A stretch of DNA of 64,000 nt. Origin: Phycisphaeraceae bacterium (GTDB lineage Bacteria > Planctomycetota > Phycisphaerae > Phycisphaerales > Phycisphaeraceae). The notes beneath the pieces were generated by a model. The model saw only the letters and a program-made list of their open reading frames with translations, had not been told where the DNA came from and made no database searches. Numbering within the stretch: position 1 is the stretch's first letter; the number at the start of each line of letters is the position of its first letter. The position numbers were made by a program, and so were the translations under genes. The DNA lies in contig JADLFV010000129.1 of the NCBI GenBank assembly GCA_020849625.1, positions 16,658 through 80,657 on the forward strand, written 5' to 3'. Below, one piece after another: positions 24,928-35,957 of this stretch.

Positions 24928-24933
24928 GCGGGT

Positions 24934-25036
24934 ATTTTAGATTTTAGATTTGCGATTTCTGCACGCTTATGGGGGCAACGCCATCGATGACAGCAGTTTA
25001 TTCCAAATCGCAAATCGCAAATCTAAAATCTCAAAT
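24934..25036. repeat. Inverted tandem-heptamer array (ATTTTAG/ATTTGCG type)
   Basis: ATTTTAGATTTTAGATTTGCGATTTC ... AAATCGCAAATCGCAAATCTAAAATCTCAAAT. Confidence 0.8.
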
Positions 25037-25781
25037 TCCCCTCGCCCTCGCCATTATCCCCGCCCGTTACGCCTCCGTGCGCTTCCCCGCCAAGCCGCTG
25101 GCGGCTGACACCGGCAAAACGCTCATCCAGCACGTGGTCGAGAACACCCAACGCGCTTCGCTGATCGAACGCGTGGTGGTGGCCACCGATGACCAGCGCA
25201 TCTTCGATGCCGTCAAGGCATTCGGCGGCGAAGTGGTGATGACCGGCGAACATCCCAACGGCACCAGCCGCATCGCCGAGGCCGTGCAGATTCTGCACAC
25301 CGCCCACGAGTTGATCGTCAACGTGCAGGGCGATGAGCCGGAGATCGAGCCGGACGTGATCGACTCGCTGATCGATGGTTTAGCACGCGATCCATCCTCC
25401 GACATGGCCACGCTCTACTCGCGCTTCGCCGAAGGCGAGGACCCAGCCAATCCCAACATCGTCAAAGTGGTCATGGATCAGCACAACCACGCCATCTACT
25501 TCTCACGCAGTCTCATTCCATACACCCGAGACCCGAATCCCGAAACCCGATACCCGATCTTCAAGCACCCCGGCCTGTACGCCTATCGCCGCAGTTTTCT
25601 GCTGCACTATCCGCAGCTTTCACCCACGCCGCTGGAGCAGGCCGAGAAGCTCGAGCAGTTGCGGGTGATCGAGCACGGCTTCAAGATCGCCCTGATCCCC
25701 GCCATCGCCCCCCATCCGGGCATCGATACGCCCGAACAGTATCAGGCATTCGTGAAACGCTGCCAATCGCGCCGCGCGTGA
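24987..25781 (+). CDS. kdsB: 3-deoxy-manno-octulosonate cytidylyltransferase
   Basis: LALAIIPARYASVRFPAKPLAADTGKTLIQHVVENT...VVVATDDQRIFDAV...NVQGDEPEIEP; first residues are repeat-derived (start uncertain: 24969 or 24987). Confidence 0.93.
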   Translation: MTAVYSKSQIANLKSQIPLALAIIPARYASVRFPAKPLAADTGKTLIQHVVENTQRASLIERVVVATDDQRIFDAVKAFGGEVVMTGEHPNGTSRIAEAVQILHTAHELIVNVQGDEPEIEPDVIDSLIDGLARDPSSDMATLYSRFAEGEDPANPNIVKVVMDQHNHAIYFSRSLIPYTRDPNPETRYPIFKHPGLYAYRRSFLLHYPQLSPTPLEQAEKLEQLRVIEHGFKIALIPAIAPHPGIDTPEQYQAFVKRCQSRRA

Positions 25782-28522: not shown

Positions 28523-30397
28523 ATGCCCACCACGCAGGATCTGCTCCAGAACGCCGGCCACAGTTCCCAGGAATCCGAGTTCTTCAATCCCATGCCCCCC
28601 GGCTACGTGCCCGGACGACATAAGTACGTCGTCGTCGTCGGCACCGTCATGAGCGGACTGGGCAAGGGCATCTTCTCCAGCTCCCTGGCCAAGCTGCTCA
28701 AGGACAAAGGTCTGCGCATCGCGCCGATCAAAATGGAGGGCTACCTCAACATCGACTCCGGCACGCTCAACCCCTATCGCCACGGCGAAGTGTTCGTCCT
28801 CGACGACGGACTCGAAACCGACATGGACCTGGGCACCTACGAGCGCATGCTCGATCAGAACCTGACCAAAGACAACTACACCACCTCCGGCCAGGTCTAT
28901 CGCACGGTGCTGGATAAAGAGCGCGGCGGCGGTTACCTCGGACGTGACGTGCAGATGATCCCCCATGTCACCGGCGAAGTGAAATACCTGCTTCGTCAAC
29001 TGGCGGTGCGGCAGAAGGCGGACGTGGTCTTCGTCGAGGTCGGCGGCACCGTGGGCGATCACGAAAACGCCTTCTACATCGAAGCGTTACGCCAGCTTGC
29101 TTTCGAGGAAGGCGAAGGCGCGGTCTGTTTCGTGGCGCTGACCTACGTCATTGAGCCGCCGGCCCTGGGCGAGCAGAAGTCCAAAGCGGCGCAGCTCGGT
29201 TTGAAGAAGCTGATGGAAGCGGGCGTGCAGCCGCACATGATCGCGGTGCGGGCCCAGAACGCGGTGCAGGACGCGGCGCGGCAGAAGATCGCCATGTTCT
29301 CCAACGTGCCGGTCGATCGCGTCTTTTCCATGCACGATCGGGCTTCGATCTACACCATTCCCGACGCCATGCGCCATGCGGGCCTCGACCGCGAGGTGCT
29401 GACCATGCTGCGTCTGCACGGGCGGGTCAACCAGGCGATGGAAGATGAAGCTCGCGAGCAGTGGGCCGGCTTCGTGCGCAAGCTCATCAGCCCCCGCAAG
29501 TTCAAGACAAAGATCGGCATCACGGGCAAGTACGCTTCATTGCGCGACGCTTATGCTTCGATCGACAAGGCGCTCGAGCATTGCGGGGCACATCTTTCCA
29601 GCGAGATCGACGTGGCCTGGATCGACACCACCAAGTTTCCCCCGGCCCCGGAAGTGGTCGCCGAGCAGTTGCGGGGATTCAACGCGGTGATCGTGCCGGG
29701 CGGTTTCGGCGTGCGCGGCACGGAGAGCAAGATCGCCTGCGTGCAGCATTGCCGGGAGAATCGCATTCCCTACCTGGGCATCTGCCTCGGTTTCCAGATG
29801 GCGGTGATCGAGTTCGCCCGACACGTCTGCAATCTGGAAGGGGCCGGCTCGACGGAGTTTGATCGCGAAACGAAACACCCGGTGATCGACATTCTGCCGG
29901 AGCAGAAGAAGATCGAGGGCCTGGGCGGCAACATGCGACTGGGGGCCCAGGACGTGGCGATCAAGGCGGACACGCTGGCGGCGTTTCTGTTTGCAGAAAG
30001 GCACCAAGGCACCGAGGCACCAAGGAACCAAGGGCCAATACCCTCGATGCCTCGGTCCCTTGATGCCTCGGTGCCTATTCTGATCCACGAGCGGTTCCGC
30101 CATCGCTACGAGGTGGATCCGAAATACATCGAGCAGTTGGAGGCGGCGGGATTGATCTTCTCCGGGCGGCATCCACAGCAGCCGATCATGCAGGTGCTGG
30201 AGTTGCCGCGCCCGGTGCATCCGTATTTCGTGGCGGCCCAGTTCCATCCCGAGTTGACCAGCCGTCCTCTGCGCCCGCAGCCGATGTTCATGGGACTGGT
30301 GGCGGCGGCCATTGCTCATGCACACCCTGACGTGCCCGCGGCACAGATCAGTGAGCGCTGGCTCCCTTTCGTCCAACCTGAGCCAGCCGCGGTGTGA
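28523..30397 (+). CDS. pyrG: CTP synthase (divergent, with internal insertion)
   Basis: GTVMSGLGKGIFSSSLAKLLKDKG...HGEVFVLDDGLETDMDLGTYERML...GGTVGDHE...YLGICLGFQMA...FVAAQFHPELTSRP. Confidence 0.9.
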   Translation: MPTTQDLLQNAGHSSQESEFFNPMPPGYVPGRHKYVVVVGTVMSGLGKGIFSSSLAKLLKDKGLRIAPIKMEGYLNIDSGTLNPYRHGEVFVLDDGLETDMDLGTYERMLDQNLTKDNYTTSGQVYRTVLDKERGGGYLGRDVQMIPHVTGEVKYLLRQLAVRQKADVVFVEVGGTVGDHENAFYIEALRQLAFEEGEGAVCFVALTYVIEPPALGEQKSKAAQLGLKKLMEAGVQPHMIAVRAQNAVQDAARQKIAMFSNVPVDRVFSMHDRASIYTIPDAMRHAGLDREVLTMLRLHGRVNQAMEDEAREQWAGFVRKLISPRKFKTKIGITGKYASLRDAYASIDKALEHCGAHLSSEIDVAWIDTTKFPPAPEVVAEQLRGFNAVIVPGGFGVRGTESKIACVQHCRENRIPYLGICLGFQMAVIEFARHVCNLEGAGSTEFDRETKHPVIDILPEQKKIEGLGGNMRLGAQDVAIKADTLAAFLFAERHQGTEAPRNQGPIPSMPRSLDASVPILIHERFRHRYEVDPKYIEQLEAAGLIFSGRHPQQPIMQVLELPRPVHPYFVAAQFHPELTSRPLRPQPMFMGLVAAAIAHAHPDVPAAQISERWLPFVQPEPAAV

Positions 30398-31435: not shown

Positions 31436-32440
31436 CTACGGCAACTGCTGGCGCCAGGTGTCTGGGCTGAGCGTTAGGGCGCGGGGGCTGGTGGAGCTGA
31501 TGGCCAGGTAGGCGTCGTCGATGTAGTAGGAGCCGGTGCCGTTGTTGGTGACGATCTGCCAGCGGGCCTCGAGCAGTTGGCCCTGCCAGCGCGGGGTGAT
31601 GCTGCCGCTGATCAGCCGCCAGTTGGTGTCGATGGTCGAGCCGGAGGATGAGTGGGAAAAAGTCTGCGTGCCGCTGTCAGTGCTGCGGACGTAGAGTTGG
31701 ATTTTGGCGCTGTCGGTCAGCAGGCTGGAGCGGATCCAGACGCTGGTGTCGCAGGTCAGGCCGTTGACCAATTTGCTGGTCAGGTCCTGCTGCGGGCCGT
31801 CGGTGACCGAGCTGCGCCCGGAGACGGAAAGCGAATAGGGACCACTGCGGGCGTTGCTGCCGTCAACGGCCAGGTTGAGCGTCCAGGTGGGAAACTGCCA
31901 GTTGTCCGCGTTGGTGCTGAAGCTGGGATTGGTCAGCAGATTGGTGGCGGCGCTGAGTCCGCGCAGATCGACGGGATTGAGTGTGAGGCGTTCCAGGCGT
32001 TGCACGCCGCTGACCTCACCGAGGCCTACGACGTCCACGGACTGATCGATGGCAGCCGACAGCGACGAGCCGCTGGAGGCGACGAACTTGAAGCGGAAGT
32101 TGCCGCGGCCGAGAGATGCGGAGCTGGACCAGGTGTCGTGGGTGTAAGAGGTTCGCCAGTTGCTGTTGTTCTGGATGGCGCGCAGGGCGCAATCGACGGC
32201 GGAGCGGGCCAAGAACGAGGCCTGCACGGCATCCTGATCGAGTTGCTCCGCCTGGCGCTGGGCCTGCACGGCCAGCAGGGCGGAGACGCCCAGGATGGTC
32301 ACCAGCATGGCGGCGCCCAGCACCGCGATGTAAACCGTGCCGCGCCGGCACCTCCCATTAGCCCCGGGCTCTGCCCGGGGAACTCCCCCGGCAAAGCCGG
32401 GGGCTAACGGTTTGATCATCATCGCGCAACGTCCGGTCAT
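31436..32440 (-). CDS. PilX-like pseudopilin with C-terminal carbohydrate-binding-like domain
   Basis: RRGTVYIAVLGAAMLVTILGVSALLAVQAQRQ...ARSAVDCALRAI; NLLTNPSFSTNADNWQFPTWT...SGPYSLSVSG CBM-like. Confidence 0.65.
   Translation of the reverse strand: MTGRCAMMIKPLAPGFAGGVPRAEPGANGRCRRGTVYIAVLGAAMLVTILGVSALLAVQAQRQAEQLDQDAVQASFLARSAVDCALRAIQNNSNWRTSYTHDTWSSSASLGRGNFRFKFVASSGSSLSAAIDQSVDVVGLGEVSGVQRLERLTLNPVDLRGLSAATNLLTNPSFSTNADNWQFPTWTLNLAVDGSNARSGPYSLSVSGRSSVTDGPQQDLTSKLVNGLTCDTSVWIRSSLLTDSAKIQLYVRSTDSGTQTFSHSSSGSTIDTNWRLISGSITPRWQGQLLEARWQIVTNNGTGSYYIDDAYLAISSTSPRALTLSPDTWRQQLP
32359..32406. repeat. TAGCCCC-type double palindrome inside the PilX-like CDS
   Basis: TAGCCCCGGGCTCTGCCCGGGGAACTCCCCCGGCAAAGCCGGGGGCTA. 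Confidence 0.85.
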
Positions 32441-33096
32441 GGCAGCACCCCCTTGCGAATCAGGTCGCTGCAGGCCCAGGTGCGGATGGCTTTGAGTTGG
32501 GTGACCACGCGATCACCATGTTTGACGGTGACGGTGATGAGCTTGGCCCGTTGGGAGGCGTTGGCCGAAGCGCTGACGTTGTCGGGATTGACATGGGTGA
32601 TGACGACCTGGCGCGACCAGCCGTCGAACCCGGCGATGGCTGTGCCGTTGCGATCGGCGGGCGGCGATTCGCTCAAGCCGTTGTAGTCGTCGACATCGTT
32701 GAACAGCGAGCGGTTGCCGGCCGCCAGTTCGGTGGCGTTGGGGGTCAGGCCGTCACCATTGACCGGGTCGGCATAGTCCTGGTCGATGATTTCGCTGAGC
32801 AGGTCGCCGGCCAGTTGGCAACCGCGGGCCTGCTCAGCCATGACCACGCGCGTGCTGCGCGAGGCCGCCACCGCGCTGAGTGCGGCCGTGAACAGCAGGC
32901 TCACGATGAGCATGGAGACGACCACTTCGACCAGGCTGAAAGCGGCGTTCGGGTATCGGGTATCGGGTGTCGGGTATCGGGTCAAACGACTGGCATCCGG
33001 CGCAGGCGTGGAAGGCGCGTACCGACGGCCGCCTGGAATTGAAATTCCAAAACCCGATACCCGATACCCGATACCCGATACCCGATTTCGCATCAA
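32437..33096 (-). CDS. PilV-like pseudopilin
   Basis: AAFSLVEVVVSMLIVSLLFTAALSAVAASRSTR; 4-bp overlap with downstream gene. Confidence 0.75.
   Translation of the reverse strand: MMRNRVSGIGYRVSGFGISIPGGRRYAPSTPAPDASRLTRYPTPDTRYPNAAFSLVEVVVSMLIVSLLFTAALSAVAASRSTRVVMAEQARGCQLAGDLLSEIIDQDYADPVNGDGLTPNATELAAGNRSLFNDVDDYNGLSESPPADRNGTAIAGFDGWSRQVVITHVNPDNVSASANASQRAKLITVTVKHGDRVVTQLKAIRTWACSDLIRKGVLP
32947..33086. repeat. Inverted tandem-heptamer array (GGGTATC)
   Basis: GTTCGGGTATCGGGTATCGGGTGTCGGGTATCGGGT ... AACCCGATACCCGATACCCGATACCCGATACCCGAT. Confidence 0.9.
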
Positions 33097-34817
33097 TAGC
33101 TTCCCCCGCTGATGACGGTGATCTCGTCGAACAGAGCGCCGCTGCCGGCCGGGTAAAGCGCAACGCAGCGGGTGTCGTAGGCATCAGACTCAAACTGGTA
33201 GTTGAACGTGCCGCGGTGGACGCCGTTGACGAACAGGGCCACCTCGTTGTTGCCGGGATCGAGCATCAGGCGCAGGTCGATCATGCCGGCCGGCAGGCCG
33301 GTGACGGAGGTCAGCAGGTCGTCGCCGGGTCGCTCGGTGTAGAGCTTGATCGTCTGCGTGCCGTTGGATTCGAGCCGGGCGACGGCATAGACGCCGCTGT
33401 TGGTGCTGCCGGACCAGTCGAGGTTGATCCAGACAGCCGGGCCGTCGCTGCCGCTGACGGTGGCCTGTATGCGGAGGTCGATGGTGGTGGGGTTGGGAAA
33501 GTCGGATTGAGGCCGCGAGTCGAGGTAGGTAACGCCGGCCCATTTGCCGTTGTTGAGCGTGCTGCGGTTGAAGGATCCGCCGCTGCGCACGATCCAGTCG
33601 GCCGTGCCGTCGGCGTTACTGTCGGTGTCGGTGGGATCGGCCTCATCGAAGGTCAGATGCCAGTAGTCCACGTTGTGCCAGGGTCGGTTGACCAGTGGGC
33701 AGGCCGACTGAGCGCGGCTGGCGGCAACGGTGGTGGGCTGAACGGTGACGGTCAGGCGGGTCAGGCGGGTGCGGGTGAGCGTGCGCGTGGGGCCGGGCGT
33801 CCAGTAGTAGCCGACCACGAAGTTCATCAGCGTGCGGCTGTTGTTGTAGCTCCAACTGCCGCCGGAGTTGGACGTGACGTGATAGCCGATGCCACCCGGG
33901 CCCAGGTTGGAGTGCAGGGTTTGGCCCGCCGTGCCGGTTCCGCCGGACTGATCGAGCACGAAGGCCAGCTTCTGGCCGCGCTGCATGATGGGGGCATTGT
34001 TGAAGACGAACTCATGCCAATAGAAATTCGTGGTGCTCATGTCAAGCTCTTTGAGCGTGACCGAGTCGAGCATGGTAGAAGTCGGCTCACTGCTGCCGGT
34101 GACCGACCGTATGGAAGCCCGCGCGGTGCCGAACTGCAAGCCTTCCGCCATGAGGGCGAAATAAGCCCGCGAGACCTGCCAGCGTGTGGCGTCGGCGGCC
34201 AGGTTGGGGCGGATGACCTGGGCGATCCACTTGTCGCTCTCGATGGTTCGGCTGCCGGAGTTGGTGGTGCTGGTGTTGCCGGCAAAGGCAACTTCACTGC
34301 TCTTGACATCCGGGCCGGGATAGCTGCTGGTGACTGTTTCGCTGCTGGTGGTGAAGCTGAGGCTTTGCACCGCGTCCAGCAGGATGACGTTGGCGCCGCC
34401 GTTGTAGCTGCGGTAGAGCGGAGCCCCGGCCGTGCCGGACCAGTGATAGCGGATGCGCTCGGGATCGCCGTCGTCATCGCGGTCGGGCACGGCGAAGGTG
34501 ATGGCGGTGGCGGTCAACTCGCTGAAATGCAGGGCGAAACGGGCATCATCGGTGATGCGGGCCAGAGCGGCGGCGGCATCGAGGCTCTGCTGGATGGAGG
34601 CGTCGGTCTTGTCATCGGGTACCGCCCGCGCCGCCAGCACGATGGCCGAGGAAATCCCCAGCAGCACAATGGCCGACAGCGCCAGGCCCAGGATCAGTTC
34701 GATGAGAGTGAAGGCCCGGGAATGGCGGATGGCGGATGGCGGATGGCGGATGGGATCGCGCGGTGGTCGCCCGCCTGCCCATCCATCCGCGATCCGCCAT
34801 CTGCCATCTGCCATCAT
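33093..34817 (-). CDS. PilW-like pseudopilin with large C-terminal extension
   Basis: RAFTLIELILGLALSAIVLLGISSAIVLAARAVPDDKTDASIQQSLDAAAALARITDDARFA. Confidence 0.75.
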   Translation of the reverse strand: MMADGRWRIADGWAGGRPPRDPIRHPPSAIRHSRAFTLIELILGLALSAIVLLGISSAIVLAARAVPDDKTDASIQQSLDAAAALARITDDARFALHFSELTATAITFAVPDRDDDGDPERIRYHWSGTAGAPLYRSYNGGANVILLDAVQSLSFTTSSETVTSSYPGPDVKSSEVAFAGNTSTTNSGSRTIESDKWIAQVIRPNLAADATRWQVSRAYFALMAEGLQFGTARASIRSVTGSSEPTSTMLDSVTLKELDMSTTNFYWHEFVFNNAPIMQRGQKLAFVLDQSGGTGTAGQTLHSNLGPGGIGYHVTSNSGGSWSYNNSRTLMNFVVGYYWTPGPTRTLTRTRLTRLTVTVQPTTVAASRAQSACPLVNRPWHNVDYWHLTFDEADPTDTDSNADGTADWIVRSGGSFNRSTLNNGKWAGVTYLDSRPQSDFPNPTTIDLRIQATVSGSDGPAVWINLDWSGSTNSGVYAVARLESNGTQTIKLYTERPGDDLLTSVTGLPAGMIDLRLMLDPGNNEVALFVNGVHRGTFNYQFESDAYDTRCVALYPAGSGALFDEITVISGGSY

Positions 34818-34818
34818 T
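34721..34818. repeat. Inverted tandem-heptamer array (GGCGGAT)
   Basis: AATGGCGGATGGCGGATGGCGGATGGCGGATGGGA ... TCCATCCGCGATCCGCCATCTGCCATCTGCCATCATT. Confidence 0.9.
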
Positions 34819-35371
34819 CCACGCTCATCTGTTCGGTTGTGCTGTCGTAAGTCACCGCCCGCTGTTTGTCGCCGACGGCGATGACCAGCTTGGCGGTGGT
34901 ATTGGGCTTGCCGTAGCCGTCGAACTGCAACGTGGTGCCGTTGGCGATCTTGACCGAGGTTAACACAGCGATGAAGGGCGATTCGTCGAGCTGGGTGTCG
35001 CTGACGATGTTGCCATCGGCGTCGCTGAAGCGGACGAGGTTGTCGGTGGTATCGGTGGCGAGGGTGACGGTTTTGCCGTGAGCCCGGGCGTAGCGCTGGG
35101 CCAGATCGAACTGGGCAGCCAGATGCCGGCTGGCGGCATCCAGGCGGTAGCGCTGCACGGAGCCGGCGTAACGCGGCACGGCCACGGCAGCGGCCACAGA
35201 CATCACGGCCAGGACGAGGAGCAGTTCGATCAGGGTAAAGGCGATTGTTGATTTTTGATTTTCGATTTTCGATTTTCGATTGCGGCGCGCGCTCGCACCC
35301 GGGCGTCTTTCAGATCGCCATTCGCAAATCGAAAATCGAAAATCGAAAATCACCCGTCTTCTCCTAAACAA
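34814..35371 (-). CDS. GspH/FimT-like pseudopilin
   Basis: IAFTLIELLLVLAVMSVAAAVAVPRYAGSVQRYRLDAASRHLAAQFDLAQRYARAHGKTVTL. Confidence 0.82.
   Translation of the reverse strand: MFRRRRVIFDFRFSICEWRSERRPGASARRNRKSKIENQKSTIAFTLIELLLVLAVMSVAAAVAVPRYAGSVQRYRLDAASRHLAAQFDLAQRYARAHGKTVTLATDTTDNLVRFSDADGNIVSDTQLDESPFIAVLTSVKIANGTTLQFDGYGKPNTTAKLVIAVGDKQRAVTYDSTTEQMSVE
35242..35351. repeat. Inverted tandem-heptamer array (TTTTCGA)
   Basis: GATTGTTGATTTTTGATTTTCGATTTTCGATTTTCGATTGCG ... CGCAAATCGAAAATCGAAAATCGAAAATC. Confidence 0.9.
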
Positions 35372-35447: not shown

Positions 35448-35957
35448 TCAATAATCGCTGTAAAGTTTCCCGGCCGCATCCTTCTCGGCGATGGCCGTGT
35501 TGGCTTTGACCGTGCCTTCGGTGGCGTTGTAAACCCAGGCGCAGTCTTCCGTGCCCAGGGTGTCGGTGAAGGCGGTCGATCCCTTCTCAGCGCCCACCGG
35601 CAGTGCGGGAATGCTGCGCAGGTACGGCCCGTAGATGTGGGTCGTGTCCTTGCTGGCGGCCGTGCCGCCGCTGGCGTCGGTGTACTGGGTCAACTGAGTG
35701 CTGATGTTGAGCAGCGTGGGGAACGTGCCGCTGTGCTCGGTGGCGTAGAGGTCGATGGCGTTGCGCAGCACAGCCAGGTTGGCGGTCAGGGCTGAGTCGG
35801 CCGCACCGGAGGCGCCGCGACTGATGCGGGGGATGGCGATCGCCCCGATGATGCCGATGATCACGACCACGATCACCAGCTCGATCAGGCTGAACCCCCG
35901 AAATCCTTTACCCCGGCGAGTGCGACGAGCGGCTGCAATGACCTGACTGTTCAACAT
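35448..35957 (-). CDS. GspG/PilA-like major pseudopilin
   Basis: GFRGFSLIELVIVVVIIGIIGAIAIPRISRGASGAADSALTANLAVLRNAIDLYATEHSGTFPTL; start set at 35957. Confidence 0.85.
   Translation of the reverse strand: MLNSQVIAAARRTRRGKGFRGFSLIELVIVVVIIGIIGAIAIPRISRGASGAADSALTANLAVLRNAIDLYATEHSGTFPTLLNISTQLTQYTDASGGTAASKDTTHIYGPYLRSIPALPVGAEKGSTAFTDTLGTEDCAWVYNATEGTVKANTAIAEKDAAGKLYSDY

Follow-up and report, generated by a model that had tools for sequence, protein, structure and literature searches.

Palindromic heptamer repeats in the leader regions of minor prepilin genes of a Phycisphaeraceae bacterium

Dispersed tandem heptamers are known from Cyanobacteria as short tandemly repeated repetitive (STRR) sequences, a feature that the elements described here share. 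To our knowledge, descriptions of STRR sequences include neither an inverted arrangement nor a location in pilin leaders. Judging by description, the nearest known kind is the coding palindromic repeat, as exemplified by the Rickettsia palindromic elements, which are ~150 bp long and occur in many unrelated metabolic genes (Ogata et al. 2000, 2002, described in PMC10969869). As far as that account goes, both are selfish palindromic repeats of several families that lie in frame in protein-coding genes and are apparently translated, whereas the present elements have arms of tandem heptamers, are mainly intergenic, and have their coding cases concentrated in prepilin leaders. Repeat-derived coding sequence is also reported for the enterobacterial small mobile sequences RU-1, RU-2, and RU-3, where an RU-2 repeat forms part of a signal peptide (pestis YPO1552; Delihas, PMC2759123). 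That case concerns a single signal peptide, and the element, 168 bp long, has an ORF of its own, in contrast to heptamer hairpins that recur in SPIII leaders (PMC2759123). REP and REPIN sequences, the GTAG/CGTC-tagged palindromes associated with RAYT transposases, are short and are found mainly between co-directional genes, Planctomycetes included (PMC3733652, PMC3116915). Unlike these, the elements described here have arms in which a heptamer is repeated many times in tandem, and the Y1 genes of the present genome are flanked, where at all, by other palindromes. The open-access literature searched did not mention palindromes of heptamers within prepilin leaders (weak evidence), nor a recurrent concentration of repeats in class III (prepilin) leaders.

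The source genome is a 4.82-Mb draft in 154 contigs with ~100 N_methyl genes, a number that would fit a planctomycete. On the minus strand of the window, the whole 64,000-nt stretch analyzed here, lies a type IV pilus operon comprising T2SSF, PilM/N, PilO, T2SSB-like, major pilin, FimT, PilW, PilV, and PilX genes. The FimT/GspH-like minor prepilin (34814..35353, minus strand, as are the other prepilin genes of the operon) has a GTG start at 35353 and a 38-aa leader, VIFDFRFSI...NRKSKIENQKSTIA, followed by FTLIE; its Pfam match to GspH (PF12019, E 9e-4) is weak and below cut-off. In the PilW-like minor prepilin (574 aa, 33093..34817) a 35-aa leader, MMADGRWRIADG...IRHPPSAIRHSRA, precedes FTLIE, and in the PilV-like one (32437..33093) a 51-aa leader from ATG 33093, ending ...LTRYPTPDTRYPNAA, precedes FSLVE, an alternative start at TTG 32985 giving a 15-aa leader; both match PF07963 over cut-off. 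FimT, PilW, and PilV each combine the features expected of SPIII substrates, namely a hydrophilic leader ending in Gly/Ala, FxxxE, and a hydrophobic stretch, with Ala at −1 in all three and leader net charges of +6, +4, and +6, respectively. The PilX-like gene (31436..32440) has a C-terminal CBM_4_9-type domain (PF02018) as its only Pfam match; it lacks the typical FxxxE segment, and its N-terminus was assigned from position and a hydrophobic segment only. The major prepilin (35448..35957, PF07963), an operon-mate of FimT, PilW, and PilV, has a 21-aa leader without repeats and provides an internal comparison.

An initial annotation of this DNA had claimed that four consecutive pseudopilin leaders each carry a different repeat. 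All four repeats were found where it had placed them, the PilX palindrome belonging to an unrelated class. The FimT leader holds a TTTTCGA heptamer inverted repeat (35256..35352, minus strand, as are the following three) that begins at the GTG, with arms 35256-35281 and 35327-35352 (26 nt, 100%) and a predicted RNA fold of −61.3 kcal/mol (z −5.6). A GGCGGAT heptamer inverted repeat occupies the PilW leader (34722..34814; arms 34722-34753 and 34783-34814, 91%) with a fold of −76.6 kcal/mol (z −5.5), its loop being partly common to elements at locus L131. In the PilV leader a GGGTATC heptamer inverted repeat (32949..33085) has 34-nt arms (32949-32982 and 33052-33085) that are 97% complementary, and BLAST matches it at 70 places in the genome, covering more than the arms at just one of them. 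The PilX leader carries instead a GC-rich double palindrome, TTAGCCCC...GGGGCTAA (32358..32407), which is not a heptamer element and folds weakly as RNA (z −1.1). PilX is the weakest of the four cases because of this other palindrome class and the lack of a typical FxxxE segment. A scan of the window against Rfam matched no families. Shuffles and an order-3 Markov control rule out a chance origin of the repeats.

The annotation had also held that the proximal arm of the repeat must be translated in FimT, PilW, and PilV, having found no start codon downstream of it, and on the latter point it was correct: when all start-like codons are listed, none of the three genes has ATG, GTG, or TTG from the end of the proximal arm to the +1 Phe. 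Given translation from a standard start, the proximal arm would be part of the leader. FimT offers only TTG at −44 and GTG at −38. An AGGAG (35361-35365) sits 7 nt before the GTG at 35353, which is the likely start, and the TTG that had been assigned mechanically is probably wrong. Candidate starts for PilW are the ATG codons at −35/−34 (ATGATG), overlapping the FimT stop, and those for PilV are TTG at −52, ATG at −51 (a TGATG overlap with the PilW stop), and a TTG at −15 that immediately precedes the proximal arm.

Alignment with pseudopilin orthologues, which the annotation had proposed, showed short leaders free of repeats and removes the alternative that the leaders are ancestral sequence. 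In the operons of ~15 relatives the leaders lack heptamer repeats, the sole inverted repeat near a leader being a weak non-heptamer one (L091). The relative G022 (T2SSF 58% identical) keeps the major-FimT-PilW-PilV gene order at L228, as judged by reciprocal best hits, and the same region is found in other relatives. There the reciprocal best hits have leaders of 13 aa in FimT (38 here), 21 aa in PilW (35 here; match over 556 aa), and 21 aa in PilV (51 here, or 15 from the TTG); the major prepilin (reciprocal best hit, 64%) has 16 aa there and 21 here. Further leaders differ likewise, being 34 vs 16 and 25 vs 8 aa in the L131 pair, 44 vs 10 at L135, and 26 vs 6 at L143 (here vs G022). The repeat-free orthologous leaders show that the repeats are derived, with the caveat that orthologues this distant, all from outside the genus, show absence and not insertion boundaries. 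G022 has repeats of its own in 2/25 class B leaders, both orthologues of repeat-bearing leaders here, and the units differ within each pair (L110/L234): GGCGGAT here vs AATCAGC in G022, and ATTTTAG here vs ATTTCGG-type in G022. Independent insertions fit best, although the ATTTTAG/ATTTCGG pair could also reflect the turnover of a single old element. A GTDB-wide pattern search for prepilin motifs with a GGCGGAT arm no more than 30 nt away returned five matches. The two in Planctomycetota lack a left arm and resemble remnants of an arm, and the other three are unconvincing; the GGCGGAT family thus appears to be rare in leaders outside this genome.

Beyond the window, we sampled 1.476 Mb of the genome, picked mostly around prepilin genes, with controls from the same contigs. 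A simple home-made hexamer model called 1,249 genes, 85 of them prepilin-like (26 operonic class B and 59 DUF1559-like, the latter labeled by motif and not by a family scan). The sample contains 155 inverted repeats with a score of at least 15, compared with 1 found by the same finder in an order-3 Markov version, and about 50 of these have tandem 7-8 nt arms of several unit families (55 by a 7/8-periodicity criterion for heptamer-type arms). Polarity within a heptamer family is fixed (e.g., always GGGTATC...GATACCC) and loops are mostly unique. Most of these elements are closely fitted into the space between genes, commonly beginning a few bases past one stop codon and leaving 3-39 bases to the next start. 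One GGGTATC element (L120:498-586, on G000:C60) lies directly 5' of the single A24_N prepilin peptidase gene found in the genome (G000:C60:638-886, the pilD match). A GspK/PilX-like gene at L131:15425-19363, adjoining two repeat-bearing pseudopilins, has a leader, ARNPIPDTRYPRHNRG, made up of GGGTATC-type repeats.

Repeats are strongly concentrated in the leaders of class B prepilins. We counted period-7/8 tandem arrays lying no more than 66 nt from the cleavage site or, for other genes, in the first 66 nt, and found them in 10/26 class B prepilins vs 6/1,120 other gene starts (Fisher p = 4e-14), a rate ~70 times higher in the class B leaders. Only 2/323 signal-peptide-like genes were positive (p 5e-11 vs class B), and one of the two, L131 15425-19363, itself looks like a GspK/PilX-type pseudopilin; interior windows gave 4/4,723 and DUF1559-like prepilins 1/59. 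With inverted repeats counted and the range widened to 180 nt upstream, 14/26 class B genes were positive. Full inverted repeats ending 6-25 nt before the cleavage site/+1 Phe occur in 10/85 prepilins, compared with an element entering the 5' coding end in only 3/1,164 other genes (p 3e-10): a KdsB-like gene, a lipoprotein-like gene with a repeat-coded signal-peptide core, and a LepB-like N-terminus. At co-directional junctions, 11/19 class B leaders carry repeats vs 38/728 other noncoding junctions; a possible factor is that a leader may leave more bases free than a tight junction does. Elements within one operon may be non-independent. Some leaders are not independent of each other, the GGCGGAT loops of L131 being similar to that of the window. 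The proposal that independent insertions repeatedly hit a tolerant, cleaved slot has held, with 10/26 class B leaders positive, derived repeats, and different units in two orthologous pairs. Alanine at −1 is found in 6/10 repeat-bearing vs 21/75 other prepilins, a small set in which a consequence of insertion is suggestive only.

We consider it probable that selfish palindromic heptamer elements accumulate both between genes and in the discarded leader segment of prepilins. Prepilin leaders are of variable length, have Gly or Ala as their last residue, and remain in the cytoplasm in accordance with the positive-inside rule (PMC10191384). An element would land at a tight operon junction or within a short ancestral leader, and an open frame from the upstream start would easily be retained, the arm being usually stop-free. 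Since 7 and 3 are coprime, all three frames of an arm read one 7-residue cycle, and a unit whose cycle lacks a stop is open whichever frame is read. The peptide cycles encoded here, IRHPPSA, TRYPIPD, and NRKSKIE, are hydrophilic. The added sequence, hydrophilic and net positive, would satisfy the positive-inside rule, and the single PilD-type peptidase would be predicted to cut after the −1 Gly/Ala, leaving the mature pilin unchanged. Insertions into most other coding sequence would be purged, those in leaders surviving. Multi-copy palindromes do lie in frame in genes whose orthologues lack one, both in the leaders and in pyrG. Openness of the frame is ruled out as evidence of selection, given that 30/60 intergenic arrays are likewise open in the downstream frame and that stop-free units are common everywhere (48/60 vs 12/13).

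Most of the pattern is accounted for if a segment that is later discarded tolerates insertions, but as a sole cause such tolerance is incomplete, given the excess of repeats in leaders over noncoding co-directional junctions. Two further observations run against a disposable leader: DUF1559-like leaders are likewise cleaved and carry repeats in only 1/59 cases, and a start-codon hairpin of −61 to −77 kcal/mol would be expected to impede initiation. Such strong RNA hairpins in FimT and PilW make an effect on translation likely, whether selected or not. The elements might be kept as regulators, a start-codon hairpin dampening or coupling translation and setting a low minor-pilin stoichiometry, with the translated leader a side effect. 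The FimT and PilW elements start at most 3 nt from the start codon with z of about −5.5, the start codons of PilW and PilV overlap the stop of the preceding gene, as fits coupling, and leaders carry repeats more often than other junctions, while the major pilin and the DUF1559-like prepilins have almost none. We regard this explanation as unlikely: the hairpins are absent from the orthologous operons of G022 and other relatives, repeat family, loop, and length differ from gene to gene, and like elements occur between unrelated genes and within pyrG. We are similarly doubtful that heptamer elements at minor-pilin starts are favored or targeted as translated hairpin modules, acquired independently per gene, that would set expression while the repeat-coded peptide serves as the leader.

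Preferred insertion at some DNA feature of the pseudopilin 5' end, as opposed to selective filtering, would also yield 11/19 against 38/728 and the clustering of element ends 6-25 nt before the conserved FxxxE codons. Such target-site specificity is quite improbable given that the FTLIE coding motif is common to the DUF1559-like prepilins (1/59), that several unrelated repeat families take part, and that intergenic elements sit equally snugly upstream of unrelated start codons. Least credible of all is that the repeats are noncoding spacers, with the real starts elsewhere (non-canonical, or reached by reinitiation at a rare codon) and no repeat translated. Elements elsewhere are indeed mostly intergenic, and the ORFs show no more than an open frame, which half of such arrays would have anyway; however, FimT, PilW, and PilV offer no ATG, GTG, or TTG between the proximal arm and the transmembrane segment, the sole near-start codons there being ATC (FimT, PilW), and in FimT a clear AGGAG-GTG start stands ahead of the element.

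With selfish elements accumulating in a disposable leader as the preferred reading, this genome offers a natural experiment on the minimal prepilin leader, a large share of its minor-pilin leaders being built from unrelated repeat DNA. It also shows where coding palindromic repeats can persist, namely in a cleaved, hydrophilic, frame-insensitive slot, and the excess of leaders over noncoding junctions makes tolerance vs function testable. Pseudopilin N-termini in repeat-rich genomes are easily misannotated, and leader sequence is unfit for homology.

Rare coding cases outside prepilins include two on the plus strand of the window. An ATTTTAG/ATTTGCG inverted repeat (24930..25040) enters the N-terminus of the KdsB-like gene (24987-25781), giving MTAVYSKSQIANLKSQIPLALAIIPARY, and an 8-mer (CACCAAGG-type) inverted repeat (30007..30076) lies in frame within the CTP synthase gene pyrG (28523-30397). 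PDB 1vco aligns to residues 30-491 and 522-599 of the latter with 4 residues between, indicating ~26 extra residues. In the lipoprotein-like gene (L119:12099-13115), TTGGTCA heptamers encode the signal-peptide core (LVIGHWSLVI).

Palindromes of other kinds are also present in the genome. Of its four Y1_Tnp genes, three are flanked by non-heptamer palindromes and one by none found, and mobilization of the heptamers by RAYT was accordingly rejected. At one of these, a RAYT-like Y1 transposase gene (L171, G000:C17:15509-15727), CCGCCGTCGCCGACGGCGG palindromes lie on both sides, the upstream copy being preceded by ATAG. They resemble the ATAGCCCC class, whose palindrome is found just upstream of the ATG in 7 or 8 DUF1559-like prepilins. 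Seven prepilin genes (L111, L115, L122, L135, L157, L161, and L167) share an almost identical ATAGCCCCGGCCTTGGCCGGGGCTAT palindrome just 5' of the ATG, ending ~32-41 nt before the +1 Phe, which may be REP-like or regulatory.
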